From Bacteroidaceae bacterium (GTDB lineage: Bacteria; Bacteroidota; Bacteroidia; Bacteroidales; Bacteroidaceae): 64,000 nucleotides of DNA. Both the position numbers and the translations under genes were made by a program. The stretch lies in assembly GCA_024401275.1 (NCBI GenBank), contig JAKSLJ010000007.1, positions 1 to 64,000 on the forward strand, in the 5' to 3' direction. Position 1 is the first letter of the stretch. Every line of letters begins with the position of its first letter. Below are positions 2,821 to 61,521 of this stretch, piece by piece. The notes under the pieces were generated by a model, which made no database searches, was not told the DNA's origin, and saw only the letters and a program-made list of their open reading frames with translations.

Positions 2821-5238
2821 TTACTCTTGCACATAAATCTTCTTCACTCGCGAACTTACGGATGTGAGCACTTCATAAGGAATGGTGTCGAGAGCATCCG
2901 AAAGAACCGTAACAGGCAGATTGCTGCCGAAGATTTCCACGCAGTCGCCTTCCTGGCAGTCTATGTCCGTAACATCAATCATGGTAACATCCATGCAAAT
3001 ATTTCCTACATAAGGTGCTTTCTTGCCATTAACCAGGCAGTAGCAGTTACCACGACCGAGATGGCGATTAAGTCCGTCGGCATAACCGATAGGAATGGCT
3101 GCTATGCGAGAGTCACGCTCAAGAACTCCGCGCTTGCTGTAGCCTACGGTATCTTCCTTACGGACATCGCGAATCTGAAGGATGGTGGTCTTGAGAGTTG
3201 AGACATTGTTTATAATTGAGTTGTCGCGATTGTTCACGCCGTAAAGTCCGATGCCTAGACGGCACATGTCCATCTGGCGGTCATGGAAATGAATGATGCC
3301 GGCAGAGTTGTCTATGTGGCGGAGAATATGATGTGAGAAAGCTGACTGGAGAATGCTGCTGCCATGCTCAAACTTGCGGAACTGCTCTGCTGAGAAATCG
3401 TCGAAACGATCTTCGTCAGCTCCCACGAAATGTGAGAATACAGAACGAGGGGTTATGGCGCATTGCGATTTCAGAATCTCTACAAGCTGTTCAACTTCCG
3501 TCTCTGGATTAAAGCCAAGGCGATGCATGCCCGTATCGAGCTTGATATGCACTGGATAATCCGTAATGCCTTGCTGCTGAGCTGCTTTGATGAGAGCATT
3601 GAGTAGTCGGAAATTATAAACCTCAGGCTCAAGTTTATAGTCGAACATGGTCTTGAAGGCGGTCATTTCCGGATTCATTATCATGATGTTCGTTGTAATT
3701 CCTGCCTTGCGAAGTTCTACACCCTCATCGGCAACGGCTACGGCGAGATAGTCTATCTGATGGTCTTGCAGCACCTTTGAGACTTCTACAGCGCCTGTAC
3801 CGTAAGCATCTGCCTTAACCATAGCGACGAGCTTTGTCTGCTCCTGCATGTGAGAGCGATAGAAATTGAGGTTATCTACTATGGCGTTGAGGTTGACTTC
3901 AAGAATCGTCTCATGAACTTTCAACTCAAGAGCGTCTGAGATACGGTCGAAATGATAGCAGCGAGCACCCTTTATGAGCACGATATCGTTGGCAAGTGAA
4001 CGGAAGAGTTCGCTTTCCATGAACTCGTTTGTGGTGAGGAAGAAATGCTTGTCCTTTACTTCTATGAGTTCCTGATTATCGGAAATAGCCTCGCCGATAC
4101 CGATTATGCAATCTACGCCGCGAATGTTAGCCAGTCGGGAAACTTCTGTATATAGTTCTTCCGGCTCCATGCCTGTCTGAAGGATGTCGCTTAGAATGAG
4201 CAATTTCCTGCGATCTGCAGCATCCTTGCGTCTTGCCATGAAAGTGAGGGCGATATCAAGAGAGACGACATCCGAGTTGTACGAGTCGTTAATGAGCGTG
4301 AGTCCGCGATTGCCTTCCTTTACCTCCATACGCAAGGCAACTGGTTCAAGCTGCTTCATGCGCTCTATGATAGTCTGCTCCGGAAGTCCGAGCTGGAGTA
4401 GGGTAGAGTAGCAGATGCAAGCGTTGTCTATGGAAGCCTGGTCTTCAAAAGGAAGAGAAAGTTTCTCGGCGTCCTTGCGTGACCAGCGAATGATTTTTCC
4501 TTTTATATTAGCCTTCTCAAAGCAAGCTTGCAGATTGATTCTTGCAGAGCCGTTATCGTCAGAATCTTCGGGACAGATAATGATGTCAGCTTCCTTGAAA
4601 AGCTGTATCTTCTCCATACATTTCTGCTCAAGCGACTCAAAGTTCTCCTGATGGGCAGAACCGATGTTTGTGATGATACCAATTGTCGGCTGTATGATGT
4701 CACGCAGATATTTCATTTCGTTTGGCTGCGAAATACCAGCTTCGAGAATGGCAATCTCCGTATTGTTGTCCATTCGCCAAACTGAAAGTGGTACGCCTAT
4801 CTGCGAATTGTAGCTGCGAGGGGAACGGGTTACCGTACGATCTTGTGAAAGAATCTGGAAGAGCCATTCCTTGACGATGGTTTTTCCGTTACTTCCTGTG
4901 ATGCCGATAACAGGTACTTGGAACTCATCACGATGACGCTCGGCAAGCCTCTGTATGGCTTTAAGCGAATTCGGTACACGAAGGAAATTAGCCTTTGGAT
5001 AGTTCGCGTCAAAGTCTGTAGGGAGAGTTTCCACTACGAAGTTGCGTACACCCTTAGAGTATAGCTGTGGGATGTATTTATGTCCGTCGTTTCGTTGTGT
5101 ATGAATGGCGAAGAAGAGCGTTGCCTCAGGAAAGGCAAGACTGCGGCTGTCGGTAAGTAACCATCCGATGGATGCACTTTCTTTACCGAAACGATGTGCT
5201 CCTATGAGCGTCGTTATTTTTTCAATAGAGTAAATCAT
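2821..5238 (-). CDS. murF-alr: Fused MurF ligase and alanine racemase
   Basis: The 805-residue protein joins two cell-wall enzymes, an arrangement common in Bacteroidetes. Residues 1 to about 440 form MurF, the cytosolic ATP-dependent ligase that adds D-Ala-D-Ala to UDP-MurNAc-tripeptide; the ATP loop ITGSNGKTIVKEW lies near residue 113. Residues from about 445 onward form alanine racemase, a PLP enzyme that makes D-Ala from L-Ala. The PLP lysine is in MVKADAYGTGAVE near residue 480, and the catalytic tyrosine region is GYSKRG. The fusion couples D-Ala production to its use. It is the last gene of a leftward run, 30 bases after the GSCFA gene, and is followed by a stem-loop. The standalone ddl step is not in this window. 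Confidence 0.95.
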   Translation of the reverse strand: MIYSIEKITTLIGAHRFGKESASIGWLLTDSRSLAFPEATLFFAIHTQRNDGHKYIPQLYSKGVRNFVVETLPTDFDANYPKANFLRVPNSLKAIQRLAERHRDEFQVPVIGITGSNGKTIVKEWLFQILSQDRTVTRSPRSYNSQIGVPLSVWRMDNNTEIAILEAGISQPNEMKYLRDIIQPTIGIITNIGSAHQENFESLEQKCMEKIQLFKEADIIICPEDSDDNGSARINLQACFEKANIKGKIIRWSRKDAEKLSLPFEDQASIDNACICYSTLLQLGLPEQTIIERMKQLEPVALRMEVKEGNRGLTLINDSYNSDVVSLDIALTFMARRKDAADRRKLLILSDILQTGMEPEELYTEVSRLANIRGVDCIIGIGEAISDNQELIEVKDKHFFLTTNEFMESELFRSLANDIVLIKGARCYHFDRISDALELKVHETILEVNLNAIVDNLNFYRSHMQEQTKLVAMVKADAYGTGAVEVSKVLQDHQIDYLAVAVADEGVELRKAGITTNIMIMNPEMTAFKTMFDYKLEPEVYNFRLLNALIKAAQQQGITDYPVHIKLDTGMHRLGFNPETEVEQLVEILKSQCAITPRSVFSHFVGADEDRFDDFSAEQFRKFEHGSSILQSAFSHHILRHIDNSAGIIHFHDRQMDMCRLGIGLYGVNNRDNSIINNVSTLKTTILQIRDVRKEDTVGYSKRGVLERDSRIAAIPIGYADGLNRHLGRGNCYCLVNGKKAPYVGNICMDVTMIDVTDIDCQEGDCVEIFGSNLPVTVLSDALDTIPYEVLTSVSSRVKKIYVQE

Positions 5239-5268
5239 ATTATCATTTACAATTTACATGTTTACAAT

Positions 5269-11710: not shown

Positions 11711-13450
11711 ATGAAAAGACTTATTATACTTCCGTTGATAGCCGCATTTGCGCAAGACATCAGCGCACAAATCACAGAAACTGCAACCGAAGCGGTAAAG
11801 AACATGGGCGTAGGTTGGAACCTTGGAAACACTCTTGACGCACACAAAAATTCCGGTAAGGACATAAGCGTCGCAAACTATTGGGGACAGCAAGGCGTAG
11901 ATTCCGAGACTTATTGGGGGCAACCAGTAACAAAGCCAGAACTTTTCGCCATGATGAAGAAAGCTGGTTTTGGCGCAATCCGCGTTCCCGTGACATGGTA
12001 CAACCATATGAACAAGGACGGAAAAGTTGATGCTGCATGGATGAAACGTGTACATCAGGTGGTGGATTATGTGCTGGACAACGGTCTTTATTGTATAATA
12101 AATGTTCACCATGATACTGGCGCAGACGGCGACAGCCACGTTTCTTGGATAAAGGCGGGTGAAGATTCATACAACCTCAACAAAGAGCGTTTTGAAGGTT
12201 TATGGAAGCAGATTGCTGAGGAATTCAAAGACTACGGCAAGGAACTTATCTTCGAAAGCTACAACGAGATGCTCGACAAGTACAATTCATGGTGCTTTGC
12301 CACTTTTGCTGCACCTGGCCAATATAATGCTACAGATGCAGCTTCTGCTTACAAAGGCTTGAACGGCTACGCACAGAGCTTTGTGAATGCAGTTCGTGCC
12401 ACAGGTGGAAATAACGCTTCACGCAACCTCGTAATAAACACTTACGCAGCGGCAAACGGTTATGGCACTTGGAACTCTCACCTCAAGGATCCGCTGACAA
12501 AGCTTCAGATGCCTGAGGGTGAAGCCGGAAAGGGACACATCATCTTTGAAGTTCACACTTACCCTAACATTATAACTACGAGCGGCAATACTGTTACAAA
12601 CCGTTCTCTTAGCTCTATAAAGAGTGAGGTGGACGGCATGATTAAGGTGCTGAAGGACAATCTTGTATCAAAAGGTGGTCCTGTAATCTTCGGCGAATGG
12701 GGAACGAGCAATGTGGATCAGGGAACCGGCAAGACTGATTACGACGTTCGCCGTGAGCTTATGCTTCAGTTTGCAGAATATTTTGTAAAGCAAACCAAGG
12801 CAGCCGGCATGGGAACATTCTACTGGATGGGAATGTCTGACGGTCCGATGCGAAACGTACCTGCTTTCAATCAGCCAGATCTTGCTGAATGTGTAACAAA
12901 AGCTTATCACGGCAGCAACTTTAACGGCGAATATCCAGACAAGATGGCAGCTGATGAATATGTTTGTTTCGAAGGCGACAAAGTTCTTAATTGGGGTGAC
13001 GGCATCACAATTTCTGCAGCCATGTTTGCTAATTTCAGCTCTTCATCACGCATAGTGTTAGAGTATAAGCAGGAAGCTAGCTATAACGCATTACAATTGT
13101 TCTACGGAGATTGGTCCGTCAAACCTTCTTTTACTGTTGACGGCAGCAAGCAATTCTCAGGAGACTTAGAACCAGGTAAATTCTATAATACTCCTGTTGG
13201 TACAAAACATACTACATCCCTTACCTTTAATGCTACGACTTACGACCAGTTGAAAAAGAAGGGACTTGTAATACATGGCAAAGGCGTACGTTTGTACAAG
13301 GCTATAATAACAGATAAAAGTTCTGGTATCAGCAATGCAAAGGCTGAGCAAAACAAGAGAACGGAGATATACAACATGGCAGGACAGCGAGTTGAGAAGG
13401 CTACCCGAGGCTTGTATATCATAAACGGAAAGAAGGTTTTGGTAAAATAA
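11711..13450 (+). CDS. Secreted glycoside hydrolase family 5 endoglucanase
   Basis: The 579-residue protein begins with a signal peptide (MKRLIILPLIAAFAQDISAQ) and a GH5 catalytic domain from about residue 25 to 390. GH5 enzymes cut beta-1,4-glucans or related beta-linked polymers by a retaining mechanism. The acid/base glutamate is in FESYNE (Glu186) and the nucleophile is in FGEWGT (Glu329); NVHHD and WNLGNTLD are other family motifs. A C-terminal beta-rich region (about 415-535) looks like a carbohydrate-binding module. The last 40 residues (YNMAGQRV...RGLYIINGKKVLVK) resemble a type IX secretion sorting tail. The ATG at 11711 is chosen because the promoter overlaps the longer frame. Cellulase, xyloglucanase or mannanase activity cannot be separated by eye. 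Confidence 0.93.
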   Translation: MKRLIILPLIAAFAQDISAQITETATEAVKNMGVGWNLGNTLDAHKNSGKDISVANYWGQQGVDSETYWGQPVTKPELFAMMKKAGFGAIRVPVTWYNHMNKDGKVDAAWMKRVHQVVDYVLDNGLYCIINVHHDTGADGDSHVSWIKAGEDSYNLNKERFEGLWKQIAEEFKDYGKELIFESYNEMLDKYNSWCFATFAAPGQYNATDAASAYKGLNGYAQSFVNAVRATGGNNASRNLVINTYAAANGYGTWNSHLKDPLTKLQMPEGEAGKGHIIFEVHTYPNIITTSGNTVTNRSLSSIKSEVDGMIKVLKDNLVSKGGPVIFGEWGTSNVDQGTGKTDYDVRRELMLQFAEYFVKQTKAAGMGTFYWMGMSDGPMRNVPAFNQPDLAECVTKAYHGSNFNGEYPDKMAADEYVCFEGDKVLNWGDGITISAAMFANFSSSSRIVLEYKQEASYNALQLFYGDWSVKPSFTVDGSKQFSGDLEPGKFYNTPVGTKHTTSLTFNATTYDQLKKKGLVIHGKGVRLYKAIITDKSSGISNAKAEQNKRTEIYNMAGQRVEKATRGLYIINGKKVLVK

Positions 13451-13478
13451 AAGAAAGTTTTGGCAAGATAATAGAATA

Positions 13479-13509
13479 AAGGGAACTGCAAAAAGCAGTT
13501 CCCTTTTTT
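13479..13509 (+). terminator. Intrinsic terminator of the GH5 gene
   Basis: An 11-bp stem (AAGGGAACTGC / GCAGTTCCCTT) with an AAAAA loop is followed by a run of T. It lies 28 bases after the stop codon. Confidence 0.9.
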
Positions 13510-13513
13510 ATTA

Positions 13514-13601
13514 GTAGGGCGAGGATTTCCGAACCGTTCCGCGCATATATCGGTGATGTTGCGTATATAATAGGAATGCGGCTCGGAAATCCTCGCCCTA
13601 C
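13514..13601 (+). repeat. Inverted-repeat element A (TAGGGCGAGGATTTCCGA family), full copy
   Basis: The arms at 13514-13536 and 13579-13601 are 23 bases long, start GTAGGGCGAGGATTTCCGA, and are inverted with one mismatch. About 42 bases lie between them. A second full copy is at 61450-61521 and a single arm lies inside a gene at 15831-15855. Both full copies sit between convergent genes. There is no coding capacity, so this is a MITE-like or REP-like repeat. Confidence 0.8.
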
Positions 13602-13629
13602 ATTTTTTGGTTGCAATAGGGTTGTTTCC

Positions 13630-15954
13630 TTATAATATCTCTGATTTCGGGAAATAATGCAGGAGAATCTCGTCGTATTTATAGCCTTTGGCAGCCATTA
13701 CTGCTGCTCCAATCTGGCAAAGCCCTACACCGTGTCCCCAACCGCGACCTTCGATGAGGAAGGAGGCTGATTTAGCTGAAGTTGACACTTCGGGAACTGT
13801 GGCTGATGCTTTGTGGATGTTGAACCAGCTGCTATAAAGATGGCTGTCGGAGAGTCGGCGACGAATTTCAAGTTCCTTGCCTACGATTTCTTCACGACCG
13901 TCATTATAAACAATTTTTATCTTCCAAAGTCTGCCGCTCTTTCCGCGTTCAAGAGGAATGATTTCCTTGATGTCGGGATTCTCGTAAGTGGCTGTCCAAT
14001 TGTAGAAATGGCGTGTCTCAAGGTCGTAATCGTTTAGTACTTGCTTGAGGACCTTCATTTCTTCTTCCTTGGAGTCAAACTGTTCTCTTGTGTTACAGAA
14101 TGGACAATCTACGCTGACAAGATATGGATGAGCCGTGTTGTCCCAGCAATATTCGTATTCTTCAGACTTTCCTCCGCAGCATTTAGAGAAGCGGGCGTCG
14201 CATATCTTGCCTTCATACATGAGAACCTTACCGCGAGTTTCTTCTACGGCTTCTTCTACAAGCGGAGATGTTTGCATAGTTACGCCTTGATAGCGCTGGC
14301 AATGGTCGTCTGCACAAACATCATAAATGGTGTGGGCAGAACGGTCGTACCAAACAAGCCCCCCTCCGACTCCCCCCCCTGTGGGGGAGAGATTATCATT
14401 TGGATTTGAATGGGAGTTTTCGCTTTCTACCTCAGAGTCATTTGTTATACTCCCTCCCACTGGGGGGAGGGCTGGGGGGGGGCTGATGTTTGCAATCAGC
14501 CAACTTCGTGAAAGAATGGCATGAGCTTTGAGAAGTTCCTTATCGGACATGGCACTCATCTCACTGGAAATGACGCTTTTCAAATATTCTTCAATCGGCA
14601 GAATATTAATGGCGCAGTTCTTCCCATCTGGAGTTTTTGTGAGTTTGAGTATGCCTGAGTAGGTTAACTTACGCTCTTGCTGCCAATGGAAGTTCACCCC
14701 AATAACGATGTTCTCGATGGTAAATGTGCAATCGTCGTTTGTAGGAATAAATATTGTCTCGTTGAGAAGTTGGAGTTTCTTGTATTCTCCATTGAAAGAA
14801 TACTTGATTTCTCCTTCTGTTTCAATAAGTCCAACGGCAAGTTTCCTGCCATCGTGATTGAGGTTATAATTGAGATAATCAATCAATTCAGGTGCGGAAA
14901 CCTCATTATAAATTGCTTCTGCCTCTTCTGCGGTTATTGTTTCATAGTCTTCAAGACGTGGAGTTATCAGCAAGCCTGCCATATCAAGCGCACCTGGAGA
15001 AACAAGGCGATTGTCCTTTTCCATTCCGTAGCAAGAAGGGCGATGTTGAGAACGAATGAAGATTGTTACTTCGTAGTTGTCGCCATCTTTACGAACAAAG
15101 ACGTTGAACATAGGCTCGTATTCGCCAGTTGGTATTGGAAGAGCGTTGTATATGCGAAGGAATTCTGTTATGATAGCTTCCTTGTCTTTGCTCTTTATAG
15201 AAAGGCAAGCGCCAGGCCAATTGTTGCGATAGAGAAGGGCAGAGTCACCCGAAGTAAAAACTTCGGGAACTGTGGCTCCTTTTGAAGCGTTGGTGTTTTG
15301 GTTGTAGAAAGGGACATCCTTAATCAAACCTGCCTGAAAGTGCATGTGGTCAGGTGCGGAAGCTCCGCTGCGAGGCCCATTATAGAAAATGAAACTATCA
15401 GGATTCTGTTCGGCAAAGTCAAGCATTACTAGGAAGTAAGACTTTATTTGCTGAAGTTCATGATGCTTTGAAGGTATCGTGAAATGTACAGGTAGGATAG
15501 GGAAGGGGTTGATCAAGAGCTGGAAATGCGATAGAGAGCCCGAAGTTGATACTTCAGTAACGGTGGCAAAGGACAAAGCGGTTTGCTCTTCAGGTCGATT
15601 CTTATCGCAAAGGAAACAAGGTCGCTTGGCTAGAGTAGCTTTGTCAATCTTTGCTCCGGTAGATACAATACGAGCTGGATTACATTGCTTCTTTATTATT
15701 ACGCCGTTGGAGAGAACTAGTTCTGTGACCTTGATATTCTCAAGATCGTCATAGTTCTTTTTGGCGAGTTGCCATTCTGAACGCTGTTGGTTGAAGAATT
15801 CAATTAATGTCATTTCCTGATTTTGTTGACGGCTCGGAAATCCTCGCCCTACATTAGTGAAAGACTTAGGAAGATGCGACGCTTTCTTCTTCAGCCAGCG
15901 TTGCTTCTTCTGCTCGTATTCGGCGTGATGTTTTTCTAAGAAATTGTCTGCCAT
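13630..15954 (-). CDS. DUF4922 and SpoIID domain protein interrupted by in-frame palindromic repeats
   Basis: The 774-residue protein has an N-terminal DUF4922 domain (about residues 45-430), related to the HIT/galactose-1-phosphate uridylyltransferase fold, with the histidine motif DHMHFQAG near residue 205. The C-terminal SpoIID/LytB domain (about 430-774) includes SRSWL, CCGGKSEEYEYCWD and GRGWGHGVGLCQIGA. SpoIID proteins are peptidoglycan lytic enzymes. No signal peptide is visible, which is odd for a wall hydrolase. Five stretches match repeats found elsewhere in the window: residues 34-42 (NVGRGFPSR), 130-142, 227-239 and 718-730 (ATVPEVSTSG-like), and about 489-533 (Pro/Gly-rich). The frame is intact through all of them. 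Removing them would give about 690 residues. The fusion is known in Bacteroidales; the insertions are the unusual part. Confidence 0.85.
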   Translation of the reverse strand: MADNFLEKHHAEYEQKKQRWLKKKASHLPKSFTNVGRGFPSRQQNQEMTLIEFFNQQRSEWQLAKKNYDDLENIKVTELVLSNGVIIKKQCNPARIVSTGAKIDKATLAKRPCFLCDKNRPEEQTALSFATVTEVSTSGSLSHFQLLINPFPILPVHFTIPSKHHELQQIKSYFLVMLDFAEQNPDSFIFYNGPRSGASAPDHMHFQAGLIKDVPFYNQNTNASKGATVPEVFTSGDSALLYRNNWPGACLSIKSKDKEAIITEFLRIYNALPIPTGEYEPMFNVFVRKDGDNYEVTIFIRSQHRPSCYGMEKDNRLVSPGALDMAGLLITPRLEDYETITAEEAEAIYNEVSAPELIDYLNYNLNHDGRKLAVGLIETEGEIKYSFNGEYKKLQLLNETIFIPTNDDCTFTIENIVIGVNFHWQQERKLTYSGILKLTKTPDGKNCAINILPIEEYLKSVISSEMSAMSDKELLKAHAILSRSWLIANISPPPALPPVGGSITNDSEVESENSHSNPNDNLSPTGGGVGGGLVWYDRSAHTIYDVCADDHCQRYQGVTMQTSPLVEEAVEETRGKVLMYEGKICDARFSKCCGGKSEEYEYCWDNTAHPYLVSVDCPFCNTREQFDSKEEEMKVLKQVLNDYDLETRHFYNWTATYENPDIKEIIPLERGKSGRLWKIKIVYNDGREEIVGKELEIRRRLSDSHLYSSWFNIHKASATVPEVSTSAKSASFLIEGRGWGHGVGLCQIGAAVMAAKGYKYDEILLHYFPKSEIL
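13774..13803 (-). repeat. Palindromic element B, in-frame copy 1
   Basis: Contains CTGAAGT, loop TGAC, ACTTCGGG, followed by AACTGTGGC. It encodes ATVPEVSTSA at about residue 718 of the DUF4922-SpoIID protein, just before the GRGWGHG motif. Confidence 0.7.
14355..14490 (-). repeat. C-rich inverted-repeat element C, in frame inside the SpoIID domain
   Basis: Two arms of about 35 bases, rich in C on one side (from 14355) and G on the other (to 14490), enclose about 60 bases. They are read in frame as a Pro-rich stretch (SPPPALPPVGG) and a Gly-rich stretch (LSPTGGGVGGGL) at about residues 489-533. Related C-rich/G-rich sequence lies between ilvN and ilvB (62124-62255). Confidence 0.75.
15248..15277 (-). 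repeat. Palindromic element B, in-frame copy 2
   Basis: A perfect 8-bp palindrome, CCCGAAGT, loop AAAA, ACTTCGGG (15248-15267), followed by AACTGTGGCT. It encodes ATVPEVFTSGDS at about residues 227-238. Confidence 0.8.
15539..15567 (-). repeat. Palindromic element B, in-frame copy 3
   Basis: CCCGAAGT, loop TGAT, ACTTCAGT, followed by AACGGTGGC. It encodes ATVTEVSTSGSLS at about residues 130-142 of the DUF4922-SpoIID protein. Confidence 0.75.
15831..15855 (-). repeat. Single arm of element A inside the coding sequence
   Basis: GGCTCGGAAATCCTCGCCCT and the next bases are identical to the right arm of the element at 13514-13601. Here it is read in frame as NVGRGFPSR at residues 34-42, in the charged N-terminal segment before the DUF4922 domain. 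Confidence 0.8.
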
Positions 15955-15987
15955 GATTGTAGGGAGAACCTCGCATTAATATGAGGG

Positions 15988-16020
15988 AACGGTGGCGGGG
16001 TGGCGAAGTTAAAACTTTAG
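15988..16020 (-). repeat. Degenerate copy of element B between luxS and the SpoIID gene
   Basis: GAACGGTGGC and CGAAGTTAAAACTTTAGG resemble the core and flank of element B but in a different order. It lies in the 78-base gap between luxS and the DUF4922-SpoIID start codon. Confidence 0.35.
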
Positions 16021-16032
16021 GTATGGTGGATG

Positions 16033-16545
16033 TTAAGCATCATGGAAAGCCATGCCGTTGATGTCGGCACGCTGAAGCATATCGTACTCGCAGCAGAAAG
16101 CTGTTCTGAGACGTTCTGCATAACGCTTTGCTTCCCACTTTGCCATAGGGAGATCGTGCATGAGATAGTTGCCACAAGCATCTGGTGTGTTGCCTGGCAC
16201 CTCGTCGTTGAAGTCGGCAATGAAATCCATCGTGCGGATCATAAGTTCGCGAATAATCTCGCAGTCGTAAGAACCTTTAACTATGAGATAGCTTCCAGTC
16301 ATGCAACCCATTGGTCCCCAATAGATTACTCGTTCCTTCCATTCTTCGTCATTACGAAGATAAGTAGCTGCGAGATGTTCTATAGTATGCATAGCCGCAG
16401 GATTTATTGCAGGCTCTTGGTTTGGAGCCGTCATACGAATGTCATAAGTTGTAAACTTAGACTCTCCGTCAACATCTTGTCGTGATATGTAAATGCCAGG
16501 TTTTAGGTTAGTGTGGTCAACCTGAAATGAAGGTATTACTTCCAT
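16033..16545 (-). CDS. luxS: S-ribosylhomocysteine lyase
   Basis: The 170-residue protein matches LuxS in length and motifs. It cleaves S-ribosylhomocysteine to homocysteine and DPD, the precursor of autoinducer AI-2, as part of the activated methyl cycle in the cytosol. The metal site is HTIEH (His53, His57) with Cys124 in the DACGNY segment, and the catalytic cysteine is Cys81 in GPMGCMTG. It has its own promoter box at 16593-16601 and is separated from the upstream aldolase by a strong terminator, so it is probably a single-gene transcript. Confidence 0.97.
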   Translation of the reverse strand: MEVIPSFQVDHTNLKPGIYISRQDVDGESKFTTYDIRMTAPNQEPAINPAAMHTIEHLAATYLRNDEEWKERVIYWGPMGCMTGSYLIVKGSYDCEIIRELMIRTMDFIADFNDEVPGNTPDACGNYLMHDLPMAKWEAKRYAERLRTAFCCEYDMLQRADINGMAFHDA

Positions 16546-21030: not shown

Positions 21031-21272
21031 CATTTTTTTTGACTACTATACTAAAAAGTGGCAAATTATTTTTCCACAATCAAACATTTGTCAACTATTT
21101 CGCATTATAAAGTTGTTGATTTTTGGTTTTATTAACAAATAAATGATGTTTTCTCATGATAATTCTGAGTTTGTTTGTCTGATTCTGTCACACAAAATGC
21201 AAAGTCCGAAAGAGAGTGAAAAAACATTCTCCAGGATTTGCGAAAATAATCCTTTGAGTTTTGCATCATAAT

Positions 21273-21379
21273 CCTAAGGATTTTGAGTCGTTTCCCTAAG
21301 GATTTCATGTCGTTTCCCTATGGATTTTGAGTCGTTTCCTTAAGGATTTCATGTCGTTTTCCTAAGGTTTTTATCTCAT
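21273..21379 (+). repeat. 22-bp tandem repeat, 4.9 units, upstream of rpoN
   Basis: Units start at 21273, 21295, 21317, 21339 and 21361 with exact 22-base spacing. The unit is CCTAAGGATTT, then TGA or CAT, then GTCGTTTC; the variable triplet alternates unit by unit, so a 44-base double unit may be the copied block. The complement of the same unit is found in tandem at 54042-54116. Confidence 0.85.
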
Positions 21380-21457
21380 ATAATGTTGCGGTAGGCTAAA
21401 CTTATGTCAAGTAGCATTTTTATAAATCCTTTATTTTTGTTAAAATAACATACTTGT

Positions 21458-41375: not shown

Positions 41376-41395
41376 CCCGACGGAAAACCGTCGGG
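41376..41395. repeat. Element E hairpin (CCCGACGGAAAACCGTCGGG)
   Basis: A perfect 8-bp palindrome with an AAAA loop, followed by AATAGTAGT. The same structure with two compensating changes (CCCAACGG / CCGTTGGG, then AATAGT) lies at 55980-55999. A second imperfect hairpin (CCCTGCC / GGTAGGG) lies a few bases to the right. Both are in the purA-hisS gap. Confidence 0.6.
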
Positions 41396-41447
41396 AATAG
41401 TAGTAGAGTTTAGCCCTGCCAAAAAATGGTAGGGAACAGTAACGATT

Positions 41448-47767: not shown

Positions 47768-49117
47768 ATGAACAAAACACCCGTACTGCTGCTTACAGGC
47801 TATCTTGGCAGTGGAAAGACAACTCTCGTAAACCATATTCTCGCTAATAAGCAAAACATAAAGTTTGCCGTTATTGTCAATGATATCGGCGAAGTTAATA
47901 TCGACGCAACACTCATTCAGAAGGGTGGGGTAGTAAACCAACAGGACGACAGCCTTGTAGCCTTGCAGAACGGTTGTATCTGTTGCTCGCTAAAGATGGA
48001 CTTGGTGCAGCAGATAAACGACATCATCGCTGAAGATCGTTTCGACTACATTGTTATTGAAGCAAGTGGCATTTGCGAGCCGGCACCTATCGCACAAACC
48101 ATCTGCTCAATTCCTTCCATCAACATGCAGGCTTTGGCTCAGCGTGGCATGCGTCCAGACCCTACAATGCCGCAGCCGGTGCTCGACTCCATTGTTACCG
48201 TTGTCGATGTTCTTCGCATGAAGGACGAGTTCGATTCTGGAAAATCACTTCAGAATGCAAACTTGAAGGAAGACGATATAGAAAACCTCGTCATTGAGCA
48301 GATAGAGTTCTGTAACATCGTGATACTCAATAAGGTGTCAGAGGTGTCGCCTGAAGACCTTGCTCATGTGAAGAGTATTATTAAGGCTCTTCAGCCAACT
48401 GCTGAGATTATCGAGACCGACTATGTAAATGTGGACCTCGACAAGATTATCTATACCAATATGTTCAACTTTGAGAAGGTTGCTACTTCGGCTACTTGGG
48501 TTAAGGAAATTGAGGCAGAACACGACGAGTACGAACATCACGAGCACCATCATCATGATCACGACGATCATCATGAGCATTGTGATCACGAACATGAAGA
48601 ACATGAGCACCACCATGATCATTGCGAACATGAACATGAGCACCATCACCACCATCACGATCATGAAGACGATGGCTTAGATCATTCACATTGCGATCAT
48701 GAGCATGGACATTGCTGCCATCACCATCATGGAGAAGGCCATAATCATGGCGATGAATACGGCATTGGCACTTATGTCTATTACCGCCGTCGTCCGTTTG
48801 ACCTTCGTCGTTTTGATGATTTCGTGTCTTTCAAGATGAAGGGAATCATCCGTACAAAGGGCGTTTGCTGGTTCAAGGACGAAAACGATATGTCTTTCCT
48901 CTTCGAGCAAGCCGGTTCGCAGAAAGTTCTTCGTGAGGCTGGACAATGGTTTGCCACTATGCCGGAAGATGAACTCCAAGAGATGATGGAACGCGAAGAA
49001 CAGCTGCGCAAGGACTGGGACGAAGAGGTTGGCGACCGCATGCAGAAGATAGTCTTCATTGGTCAGCATATGGACAAGGAGCAGATAGCAAAAGACCTTG
49101 ACGAATGCCTTTTATAA
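47768..49117 (+). CDS. G3E-family (CobW/ZNG) metallochaperone GTPase with His-rich linker
   Basis: The 449-residue protein has the GTP-binding P-loop GYLGSGKTTL at residues 11-20 and the metal-binding CICC motif at 70-73. A putative Walker B region lies in the YIVIEASGICEP segment near 98. A CobW_C domain fills residues from about 335. Between the two domains, residues about 250-328 are mostly His with Asp, Glu and a few Cys. Such proteins deliver zinc, cobalt or nickel to client enzymes using GTP. The metal and client are unknown. It sits between a divergent promoter and tRNA-Leu. Confidence 0.9.
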   Translation: MNKTPVLLLTGYLGSGKTTLVNHILANKQNIKFAVIVNDIGEVNIDATLIQKGGVVNQQDDSLVALQNGCICCSLKMDLVQQINDIIAEDRFDYIVIEASGICEPAPIAQTICSIPSINMQALAQRGMRPDPTMPQPVLDSIVTVVDVLRMKDEFDSGKSLQNANLKEDDIENLVIEQIEFCNIVILNKVSEVSPEDLAHVKSIIKALQPTAEIIETDYVNVDLDKIIYTNMFNFEKVATSATWVKEIEAEHDEYEHHEHHHHDHDDHHEHCDHEHEEHEHHHDHCEHEHEHHHHHHDHEDDGLDHSHCDHEHGHCCHHHHGEGHNHGDEYGIGTYVYYRRRPFDLRRFDDFVSFKMKGIIRTKGVCWFKDENDMSFLFEQAGSQKVLREAGQWFATMPEDELQEMMEREEQLRKDWDEEVGDRMQKIVFIGQHMDKEQIAKDLDECLL

Positions 49118-53594: not shown

Positions 53595-53748
53595 TAGTCA
53601 TTAGTCATTAGTCATTTTCGGTCATTTTCGTTTCGGGAATAGTCATTTAGGCCGCTATAATTAAATATATAAATATATTTTATTATAGAGTCGGAAAAGC
53701 GCCGCGGATTTTTCTTAATGACCGAAAATGACTAATGACTAATGACTA
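53595..53748. repeat. Element F: perfect 32-bp inverted repeat, 154 bases in all
   Basis: The arms at 53595-53626 and 53717-53748 are identical in inverted orientation over 32 bases. Each arm is built from three TAGTCAT-type steps followed by TTTCGGTCATT. The interior is about 90 bases with an AT-rich palindromic core. It has no coding capacity. A partial third arm lies at 53883-53907. Confidence 0.8.
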
Positions 53749-53767
53749 GGGAAATTGAGAATTGAAG

Positions 53768-53876
53768 TTGGAAACGACGCCCAATGGGGTCGTTAGGAAG
53801 CGAATATGAAACGCTGTATATGAACAATATATGTTTTGCGGCAGTTTAACGACGACCATGGGGCGTCGTTTCCAAT
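53768..53876. repeat. Element D: inverted pair of GGAAACGACGC hairpins
   Basis: The left part (53768-53794) and right part (53848-53876) are inverted copies with a few changes, starting TTGGAAACGACGCCC on each strand. Each part can also fold on itself. A related hairpin is at 31821-31847. Confidence 0.65.
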
Positions 53877-53882
53877 ACCCCG

Positions 53883-53907
53883 AGTCATTAGTCATTTTCA
53901 GTCATTA
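53883..53907 (+). repeat. Partial arm of element F
   Basis: AGTCATTAGTCATTTTCAGT and five further bases match the left arm of the element at 53595-53748 with one change. Confidence 0.65.
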
Positions 53908-54041
53908 AGGTTTTTCCACTCGCGTGTAATGTCGGTGCAATGCATCGCCTACATCTTTGTGAAAAAAAGTTTGAAAAAAGTTGCGAAAATCCTTTAGACC
54001 GCCAGATGTTTTTCCTACCTTTGCACCGCTTTTGGGAATGA

Positions 54042-54116
54042 TAGGAAACGATGTGAAATCGTTAGGAAAACGATGCAAAATCCTTAGGAAAACGATGTGA
54101 AATCGTTAGGAAAATA
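54042..54116 (-). repeat. 22-bp tandem repeat, second locus
   Basis: Units begin TAGGAAAACGATG at 54042, 54063, 54085 and 54107 and alternate between endings TGAAATCGT and CAAAATCCT. The unit is the complement of that at 21273-21379 with about three differences. The 752-base gap 53431-54182 holds only this, elements D and F, a promoter-like TACCTTTG (plus strand, 54016-54023) and a terminator. Confidence 0.75.
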
Positions 54117-54120
54117 ACAT

Positions 54121-54154
54121 AAAAAATCCCTCACCGTAGCGGGTACGATGAGGG
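54121..54154 (-). terminator. Terminator of the nuclease/receptor operon
   Basis: CCCTCA and TGAGGG pair around an inner CGTA/TACG stem with a GCGGG loop; on the minus strand ATTTTTT follows. It lies 29 bases after the OB-fold lipoprotein stop. Confidence 0.85.
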
Positions 54155-55979: not shown

Positions 55980-55999
55980 CCCAACGGAAAACCGTTGGG
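55980..55999. repeat. Element E hairpin, second copy
   Basis: CCCAACGG, AAAA, CCGTTGGG, then AATAGT. Two compensating base changes relative to the copy at 41376-41395 keep the stem intact, which suggests selection on the structure. Confidence 0.6.
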
Positions 56000-56006
56000 A
56001 ATAGTC

Positions 56007-61449: not shown

Positions 61450-61521
61450 GTAGGGCGAGGATTTCCGAGCCGCGATTAAGGTTTTATTTTCGCGTAAACG
61501 GCTCAGAAATCTTCGCCCTAC
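61450..61521. repeat. Inverted-repeat element A, second full copy
   Basis: Arms GTAGGGCGAGGATTTCCGAG (from 61450) and its inverse ending at 61521, about 26 bases apart. It lies six bases after the tcdA stop and 27 before the ilvN stop; as at 13514-13601, it separates convergent genes. Confidence 0.8.

Follow-up and report, generated by a model that had tools for sequence, protein, structure and literature searches.

The locus at 13630..15954 of contig JAKSLJ010000007.1 (C67) raises the question how a protein gene can absorb five dispersed palindromic repeats and remain open over 774 codons. The stretch analysed, called the window throughout, comprises the first 64 kb (positions 1 to 64,000) of this contig in a Bacteroidaceae assembly (GCA_024401275.1; 3.20 Mb, 71 contigs); contig labels such as C1, C6, C14 and C45 are distinct from the repeat family C. 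The gene encodes a DUF4922 domain (residues 53-209) and a SpoIID domain (residues 446-580), both exceeding the Pfam cut-offs, and contains five inserts, all in frame: a single arm of repeat A, three hairpins of repeat B and one two-armed repeat C. An initial annotation had located these five segments within a few residues of the places found here. We consider it about 80 % probable that mobile repeats of the repetitive extragenic palindrome (REP) type enter genes and that selection keeps those copies that are read as a benign, flexible peptide. Rickettsia is the best-known case of palindromic repeats within reading frames; there, weak selection on an intracellular parasite offers, in our view, an easy excuse. 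The gene is composed of the following parts:

13630..15954, minus strand: fused frame of 774 codons, consisting of a small open reading frame (ORF), an A arm, DUF4922 and SpoIID (from the ORF, Pfam and relatives)
15853..15954, minus strand: conserved small ORF covering residues 1-34, MADNFLEKHHAEYEQKKQRWLKKK..., which relatives carry as a separate gene (from relatives)
15830..15852, minus strand: lone A arm GTAGGGCGAGGATTTCCGAGCCG, residues 35-42, read VGRGFPSR, absent from the sister-species genome G120 (from pattern and DNA alignment)
15811..15813, minus strand: original ATG of DUF4922, residue 48 (from relatives)
15538..15567, minus strand: B copy 1 (B1), ATVTEVSTSG, from residue 130, inside the DUF4922 match, fold z-score -1.7, two tandem units in G120
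15247..15276, minus strand: B copy 2 (B2), ATVPEVFTSG, from residue 227, stem 8/8, z -4.4, three units in G120
14356..14484, minus strand: C, inverted GC-rich arms and a coding spacer, SPPPALPPVGG...NLSPTGGGVGGGL, residues 491-533
13774..13803, minus strand: B copy 3 (B3), ATVPEVSTSA, from residue 718, partly decayed stem 6/8, z -2.0, one unit in G120

All three repeats are dispersed in the genome, as had been claimed. With up to three mismatches 167 copies of the A arm were detected, and none with the reversed pattern as control; the consensus GTAGGGCGAGGATTTCCGAGCCG has a GTAG tag at one end. The 17-mer of B yielded 52 sites at the same tolerance (control, 20), and at least 5 of the 8 stem pairs were kept in 43 of them. 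For C, 61 DNA matches were obtained at E <= 10, while its peptide was present at 12 places by the threshold E <= 1e-3 alone. Besides the window gene, 22 genes contained B or C in frame.

The inserts were compared with orthologous loci. Among 80 loci kept, the closest were L212 (from the metagenome-assembled genome MAG57), L213 (MAG59) and L214; identities to the window gene were 78-82 % for G120 and L214, 64 % for L212 (best segment) and 56 % for L213. L214, from a horse-faeces MAG, and the G120 locus have the same contig position and are probably the same genome. Scans with patterns allowing up to 3, 2 and 3 mismatches for A, B and C, respectively, revealed none of the repeats at any site of the L212 and L213 loci. 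In the DNA alignment with the G120 gene (82 % amino-acid identity) the A arm, C and an A pair downstream of the gene are all missing; all three B sites are present in G120, by eye with 2, 3 and 1 units compared to 1, 1 and 1 here. These absences agree with the in-frame absorption, likened to Rickettsia palindromic elements (RPE), that the initial annotation had suggested. An orthologue comparison set beforehand gave the same picture: in an alignment of eight orthologues B1 corresponds to a gap in all seven that span the site, as it does in L212, and all eight of these distant orthologues carry a variable linker free of C at the C site. B3 is a gap in L212. The loop around B2 varies in length, and the relatives do not show a uniformly clean gap. 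The native linker at the C site has about 15-41 residues in relatives (by eye); in L212 and L213 it is short, begins with IEGVH and ends with EGLVWYDRS. Clean gaps, which had been expected at each insert, were not seen for B2 or C. Nor do all elements lie between domain motifs, as had been stated: B1 is within the DUF4922 match and C within the SpoIID match. Among the three B copies, which had been described as perfect or near-perfect palindromes, B2 alone forms a full hairpin.

The distribution among genomes is narrow. No match to A or C was obtained in 148 of 150 genomes of the genus, the two with matches being this genome and G120, and 392 of 393 genomes of the order had no match to C, the single match being this genome. 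These counts cover A and C; the B pattern used there, with a loop length matching few copies, recovered just 3 of the copies in this genome. G120 carries C in its MurF gene, and the MurF of this genome is without C. The G120 contig stops 17 nt past this C copy, so that the placement is judged from the left flank. The corresponding gene part lies in the window:

4387..5244, minus strand: match to the MurF part of the MurF/alanine-racemase gene of G120, without C (from comparison with G120)

Empty sites were also observed for other host genes. RlmN holds inserts at residues 84-127 (C) and 284-315 (B plus about 20 further residues). All seven genus orthologues are without both inserts, their flanking matches being 0-27 nt (C) and 0-3 nt (B) apart, with five of the seven aligned, and the RlmN structure 3rf9 has zero residues at the C site. 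In comparison with solved structures, MnmG has 47 residues at the insert versus 8 in 3cp8, DXS has 12 extra residues versus 2o1s and MurB has 18 versus 7osq. The alignments of QueA and PriA break around the inserts, with additional unaligned residues. KdtA has 23 residues versus 1 in the solved homologue, beside a weakly aligned part. One of the five aligned RlmN orthologues (L206, G006) carries an unrelated insert of 8 residues exactly at the C site of this genome, and thus the RlmN loop tolerates insertions.

The beginning of the frame is explained by a gene fusion. Residues 1-34 had been taken as part of the DUF4922 protein; they originate from a separate small conserved gene, and the DUF4922 ATG is at residue 48. 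In G120 the small ORF has 36 codons and its TGA overlaps the ATG of DUF4922; in L212 it has 51 codons with the same overlap of TGA and ATG. Measured from the start of the small ORF, the DUF4922 ATG is 107 nt away (phase 2) in G120, 152 nt (phase 2) in L212 and 141 nt (phase 0) in the window gene. Compared with G120, the region of the A arm brings 34 additional nt, and the stop codon and the frame break between both ORFs are gone; therefore the two overlapping genes become a single frame. Matches to the small ORF were found in 25 of 59 other genomes, in open frames of 44-80 codons, and in 23 of these 25 the small ORF and the DUF4922 gene are on different contigs. An internal translation start at Met48 is possible.

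The strongest bias in reading frame was observed for B. Nine of the 52 sites, with a stem of 4/8 or less, were dropped from the frame count, and 27 of the remaining 43 were left out for lying in frames of up to 156 codons or within about 40 codons of the 5' end of a frame, the latter probably upstream of the true start. Among the excluded sites, C33:168 (glycosidase), C37:2245 (MutS), C23:122856 and 122893 (Ddl), C33:23839, C33:23875, C5:67027, C59:1596 and C27:26922 were examined closer, being the likeliest to be classed differently. Gene starts were assigned by visual inspection and frames taken as the longest ORF, without a gene predictor. This left 16 intragenic sites in 14 genes. Sense-frame hosts were the DUF4922/SpoIID gene (3 sites), PriA, SufS, RlmN, QueA, DXS, an ECF sigma factor, an M16 peptidase, a thioredoxin-like protein (a weak match, 24.8 bits versus 27), an AddB-like nuclease, an outer-membrane protein and an archaemetzincin-like lipoprotein; CobJ and MurB use the mirror frame. 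By eye, the M16 peptidase contains three B units and PriA two, and a DUF7833 gene (L121) holds an extra sense-frame copy beyond the pattern count. Of six possible frames, 12 of 14 genes thus use a single one and the other two its mirror, which reads the same stem. The probability of at least 12 of 14 independent genes in one named frame is 3e-8, or approximately 2e-7 if any of the six frames is allowed. Each frame reads without a stop through 13-16 of these 16 elements within genes, hence the bias cannot be put down to stop codons. The used frames encode 82 % and 85 % disorder-promoting residues with 0-2 % lysine plus arginine, the unused frames 33-62 % disorder-promoting residues with 21-36 % lysine plus arginine. 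A selection for flexible peptides in loops may be the cause. Among the three families B therefore fits best the proposal that the repeats are built to be translatable in one frame and orientation.

For C, frames were examined for 30 of the 61 matches. Its reading frame is free of stops at 12 of 12 peptide places, and the coding copies share the pattern SPTPALPPVGGS..NDSAV..SNPIDNLSPTGGGVGGGL. The hosts are MnmG, RlmN, QueA (a half copy), a methyltransferase of the RlmB/TrmH type, an M20 deacylase, a membrane protein, an IGHMBP2-type helicase (two copies), the related large proteins L129 and L130, and the window gene; further half copies are located in a TonB receptor and a nucleotidyltransferase-aminotransferase. 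The two-armed intragenic copies span 108-216 nt, a multiple of three in 10 of 10, and in all ten exactly one sense frame is open, and this frame is read. Inspection of 21 places for intergenic relatives revealed two two-armed copies with different spacers, C55:3380-3532 (span 151 nt) and C1:201487-201638 (span 147 nt); the latter has two stops in the C frame. A confinement of C to genes was rejected on account of these two. The right arm of the intergenic relative on C1 (L117) seems to provide a signal-peptide start (MNTSKKPNIILSPLRGGAGGGLKLLFIMVAALLC). Single C-type arms read KLPPIRGRVGVGL in a TrpG-like frame on C14 (L118, C14:14185) and SLPLVGETEGGW on C6 (L160, C6:38216). One C copy is shared by L129 and L130, and L129 alone has a further C-like insert.

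Repeat A behaves differently, and a candidate for its mobilization was present. At least 25 inverted A pairs were counted among the 100 of 167 arms listed, with a spacing of 39-85 nt, in 22 pairs of 45-50 nt. A Y1-transposase gene on contig C45 (match 14007-14261) is flanked on either side by an A pair. Its product matched the NCBIfam model NF047646 for the REP-associated tyrosine transposase (RAYT) with E 8.5e-22 and, by eye, has an HFH motif. From the flanking pairs, A is very probably moved by this RAYT. The gene context was studied for 30 of the 167 arms and for five in the window. Of the 30, the majority are located at the edges of long frames or outside them. Within genes, A is read as VGRGFPSR in the window gene and a DUF6371 gene, as RARISEP in KdtA and as RLGNPRPT in a small protein without a Pfam match. 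These are about three frames, two in recognised genes and the third in a gene without family match, so A has no preferred frame and the proposed single frame does not extend to it. Two A pairs, i.e., REPINs (REP doublets forming hairpins), are in the window:

13514..13601, no strand: complete REPIN (A pair) directly following the gene on its downstream side, missing in G120, z -8.3 for the DNA fold (from pattern, DNA alignment and fold)
61450..61521, no strand: second A pair (REPIN), one arm diverged (from pattern)

According to the explanation we favour, A is a GTAG-type REP, often arranged in inverted pairs, and very probably moved by the RAYT whose gene A pairs flank. B is a short hairpin with the lead GCCACCGTT and a varying tandem number. 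C resembles a REPIN, but its two GC-rich REP arms differ from each other and its spacer has one open sense frame. Copies in genes would survive only if the frame is kept and if translation turns them into a short stretch of flexible, non-basic peptide tolerated by a loop or linker; the unit number of B may then shift in place. Many survivors would be intergenic, as the 27 of 43 B sites not counted as intragenic and most of the 30 A arms suggest. The window gene would have experienced five such events, with the A arm also fusing the upstream small gene to DUF4922. A repeat with a sense-open spacer can persist in many genes, as C shows. A step further, B and coding C may be lineages selected as DNA parasites for the very frame that yields a flexible linker; this we regard as tentative and rather doubtful. 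If this further reading holds, repeats that evolution has made harmless in translation gain access to the coding genome and can fuse neighbouring genes. In the Prevotella-type case the hosts include DXS, MurB, PriA and MnmG, the families number three, one of them has a candidate transposase, and a sister species can be compared; this case lets one ask whether selection filters random insertions or elements have evolved towards translatable forms, and whether such repeats create new proteins and gene fusions.

Comparable systems are known. RPE are dispersed palindromic elements of 105-146 bp (PMC2229807) that have inserted into unrelated, conserved genes without breaking the frame and yield a conserved peptide there (PMC10969869, PMC3733652). 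A, B and C share the in-frame position within unrelated conserved genes; unlike RPE they occur in a different phylum, as three families together, one of them adjoined by a RAYT, and the likeness is one of description. Intragenic GTAG REPs have been recorded in other bacteria, and the main text of the same source mentions Bacteroid- once, for CGTC repeats, and lists Bacteroidetes CGTC repeats (PMC3733652). A resembles the GTAG REPs and REPINs in starting with GTAG, in forming inverted pairs and in flanking a RAYT-type gene, whereas a GTAG tag was not identified for B and C. The enterobacterial RU-1/ERIC, RU-2 and RU-3 and the neisserial Correia/NEMIS are small mobile repeats with open frames fused to genes in frame; in Neisseria a 107-bp open-frame form is present in genes, while a 155-bp form with stops almost never is (PMC2229807 and PMC2759123). 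The coding C copies and the two intergenic C relatives resemble this 107/155-bp split. The arms of RU/ERIC and Correia/NEMIS presumably differ in sequence from those found here. None of the papers listed from the mainly open literature, PMC3733652 with its main text among them, described in-frame palindromic repeats in Prevotella.

Several observations weigh against our explanation. Translation of the insert peptides is predicted from the open frames, and a target-site duplication was not established for the repeats. Being common to G120, the B sites in this gene are older than the species split. C of the window gene has taken the place of the native linker rather than splitting it. The lone A arm (z -0.24), C (z -1.5, with 14 of 200 shuffles folding equally well), B1 (-1.7) and B3 (-2.0) fold little or no better than shuffled sequences. 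The RAYT on C45 scores 77.6 bits, with a curated cut-off of 80, and the B and C patterns are absent within 1.5 kb of all four Y1_Tnp matches; by eye, one B-type peptide is present in an ORF beside the match on contig C21. B and C differ in this respect from RAYT-mobilised REPs. The frame test for B takes the genes as independent, and L129 and L130 hold duplicated copies of C. Five of the ten two-armed C copies have an open antisense frame as well; the choice of the sense frame is hence not dictated by stops alone, and a C element with just one open frame was rejected as candidate. One of the two intergenic C relatives also spans a multiple of three. By eye, some apparent genes contain lone C-type arms in other frames (the arms on C14 and C6 mentioned above).

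Alternatively, the inserts may be retained as useful, whether they serve as linkers, tune expression through mRNA hairpins or vary the protein loops. The sister species shares the B sites while the unit numbers differ, the peptide composition is soft and linker-like, and the spacer of C in L130 is tandemly duplicated in frame. However, the host genes are functionally unrelated, the C-carrying genes differ between both species and A and C match just two of the 150 genus genomes; we consider a usefulness improbable. Much less probable still is that the inserts remain untranslated by ribosome hopping or by removal of an RNA or protein segment, as with bypassing elements. The clear hairpin of B2 and the location in conserved enzymes would suit such a mechanism, yet the spans of C in multiples of three, its stop-free frame and the peptide-level frame bias of B would be needless if the inserts were skipped. 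Bypassing elements were rejected since the frame is kept.

Weak selection had been offered as an explanation, i.e., a decaying window gene that tolerates anything. Five inserts in a single gene and the loss of the native linker at C would be in accordance with a decay. Against it, 774 codons are open, and over 705 aligned codons the window gene differs from G120 at 82 first, 52 second and 318 third codon positions. Third positions thus account for 318 of 452 differences, which indicates selection at the protein level. DXS, MurB, PriA, MnmG, SufS, RlmN and QueA, conserved enzymes elsewhere in the genome, hold inserts too, and we give the decay hardly any probability. Ancestral protein segments that merely resemble repeats, or an assembly artefact, have a negligible probability: B2 does not correspond to a clean gap in every relative, but the same DNA occurs outside genes, L212 and L213 are without it, A, B and C are also in the separate genome G120, and the ancestral protein was rejected because orthologues lack the segments.

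Further repeats were noticed in passing. Rfam gave zero matches above the gathering score for 13400-16100. At window positions 41376-41440 and 55980-56005 there are palindromes CCCGACGG-AAAA-CCGTCGGG and relatives, flanked by GGAATAGT or GGAACAGT; they resemble B hairpins with different stem letters, as if the paired positions co-vary. A 22-nt tandem repeat of the CCTAAGGATTTTGAGTCGTTTC type forms arrays at 21251-21382 and 54043-54124, in opposite orientation and 33 kb apart. Imperfect short repeats rich in CAC, CAT, GAT and GAG at 48516-48671 are perhaps a His-rich protein stretch. A perfect inverted repeat of 32 nt and more copies based on TAGTCATT are located at 53595-53913.

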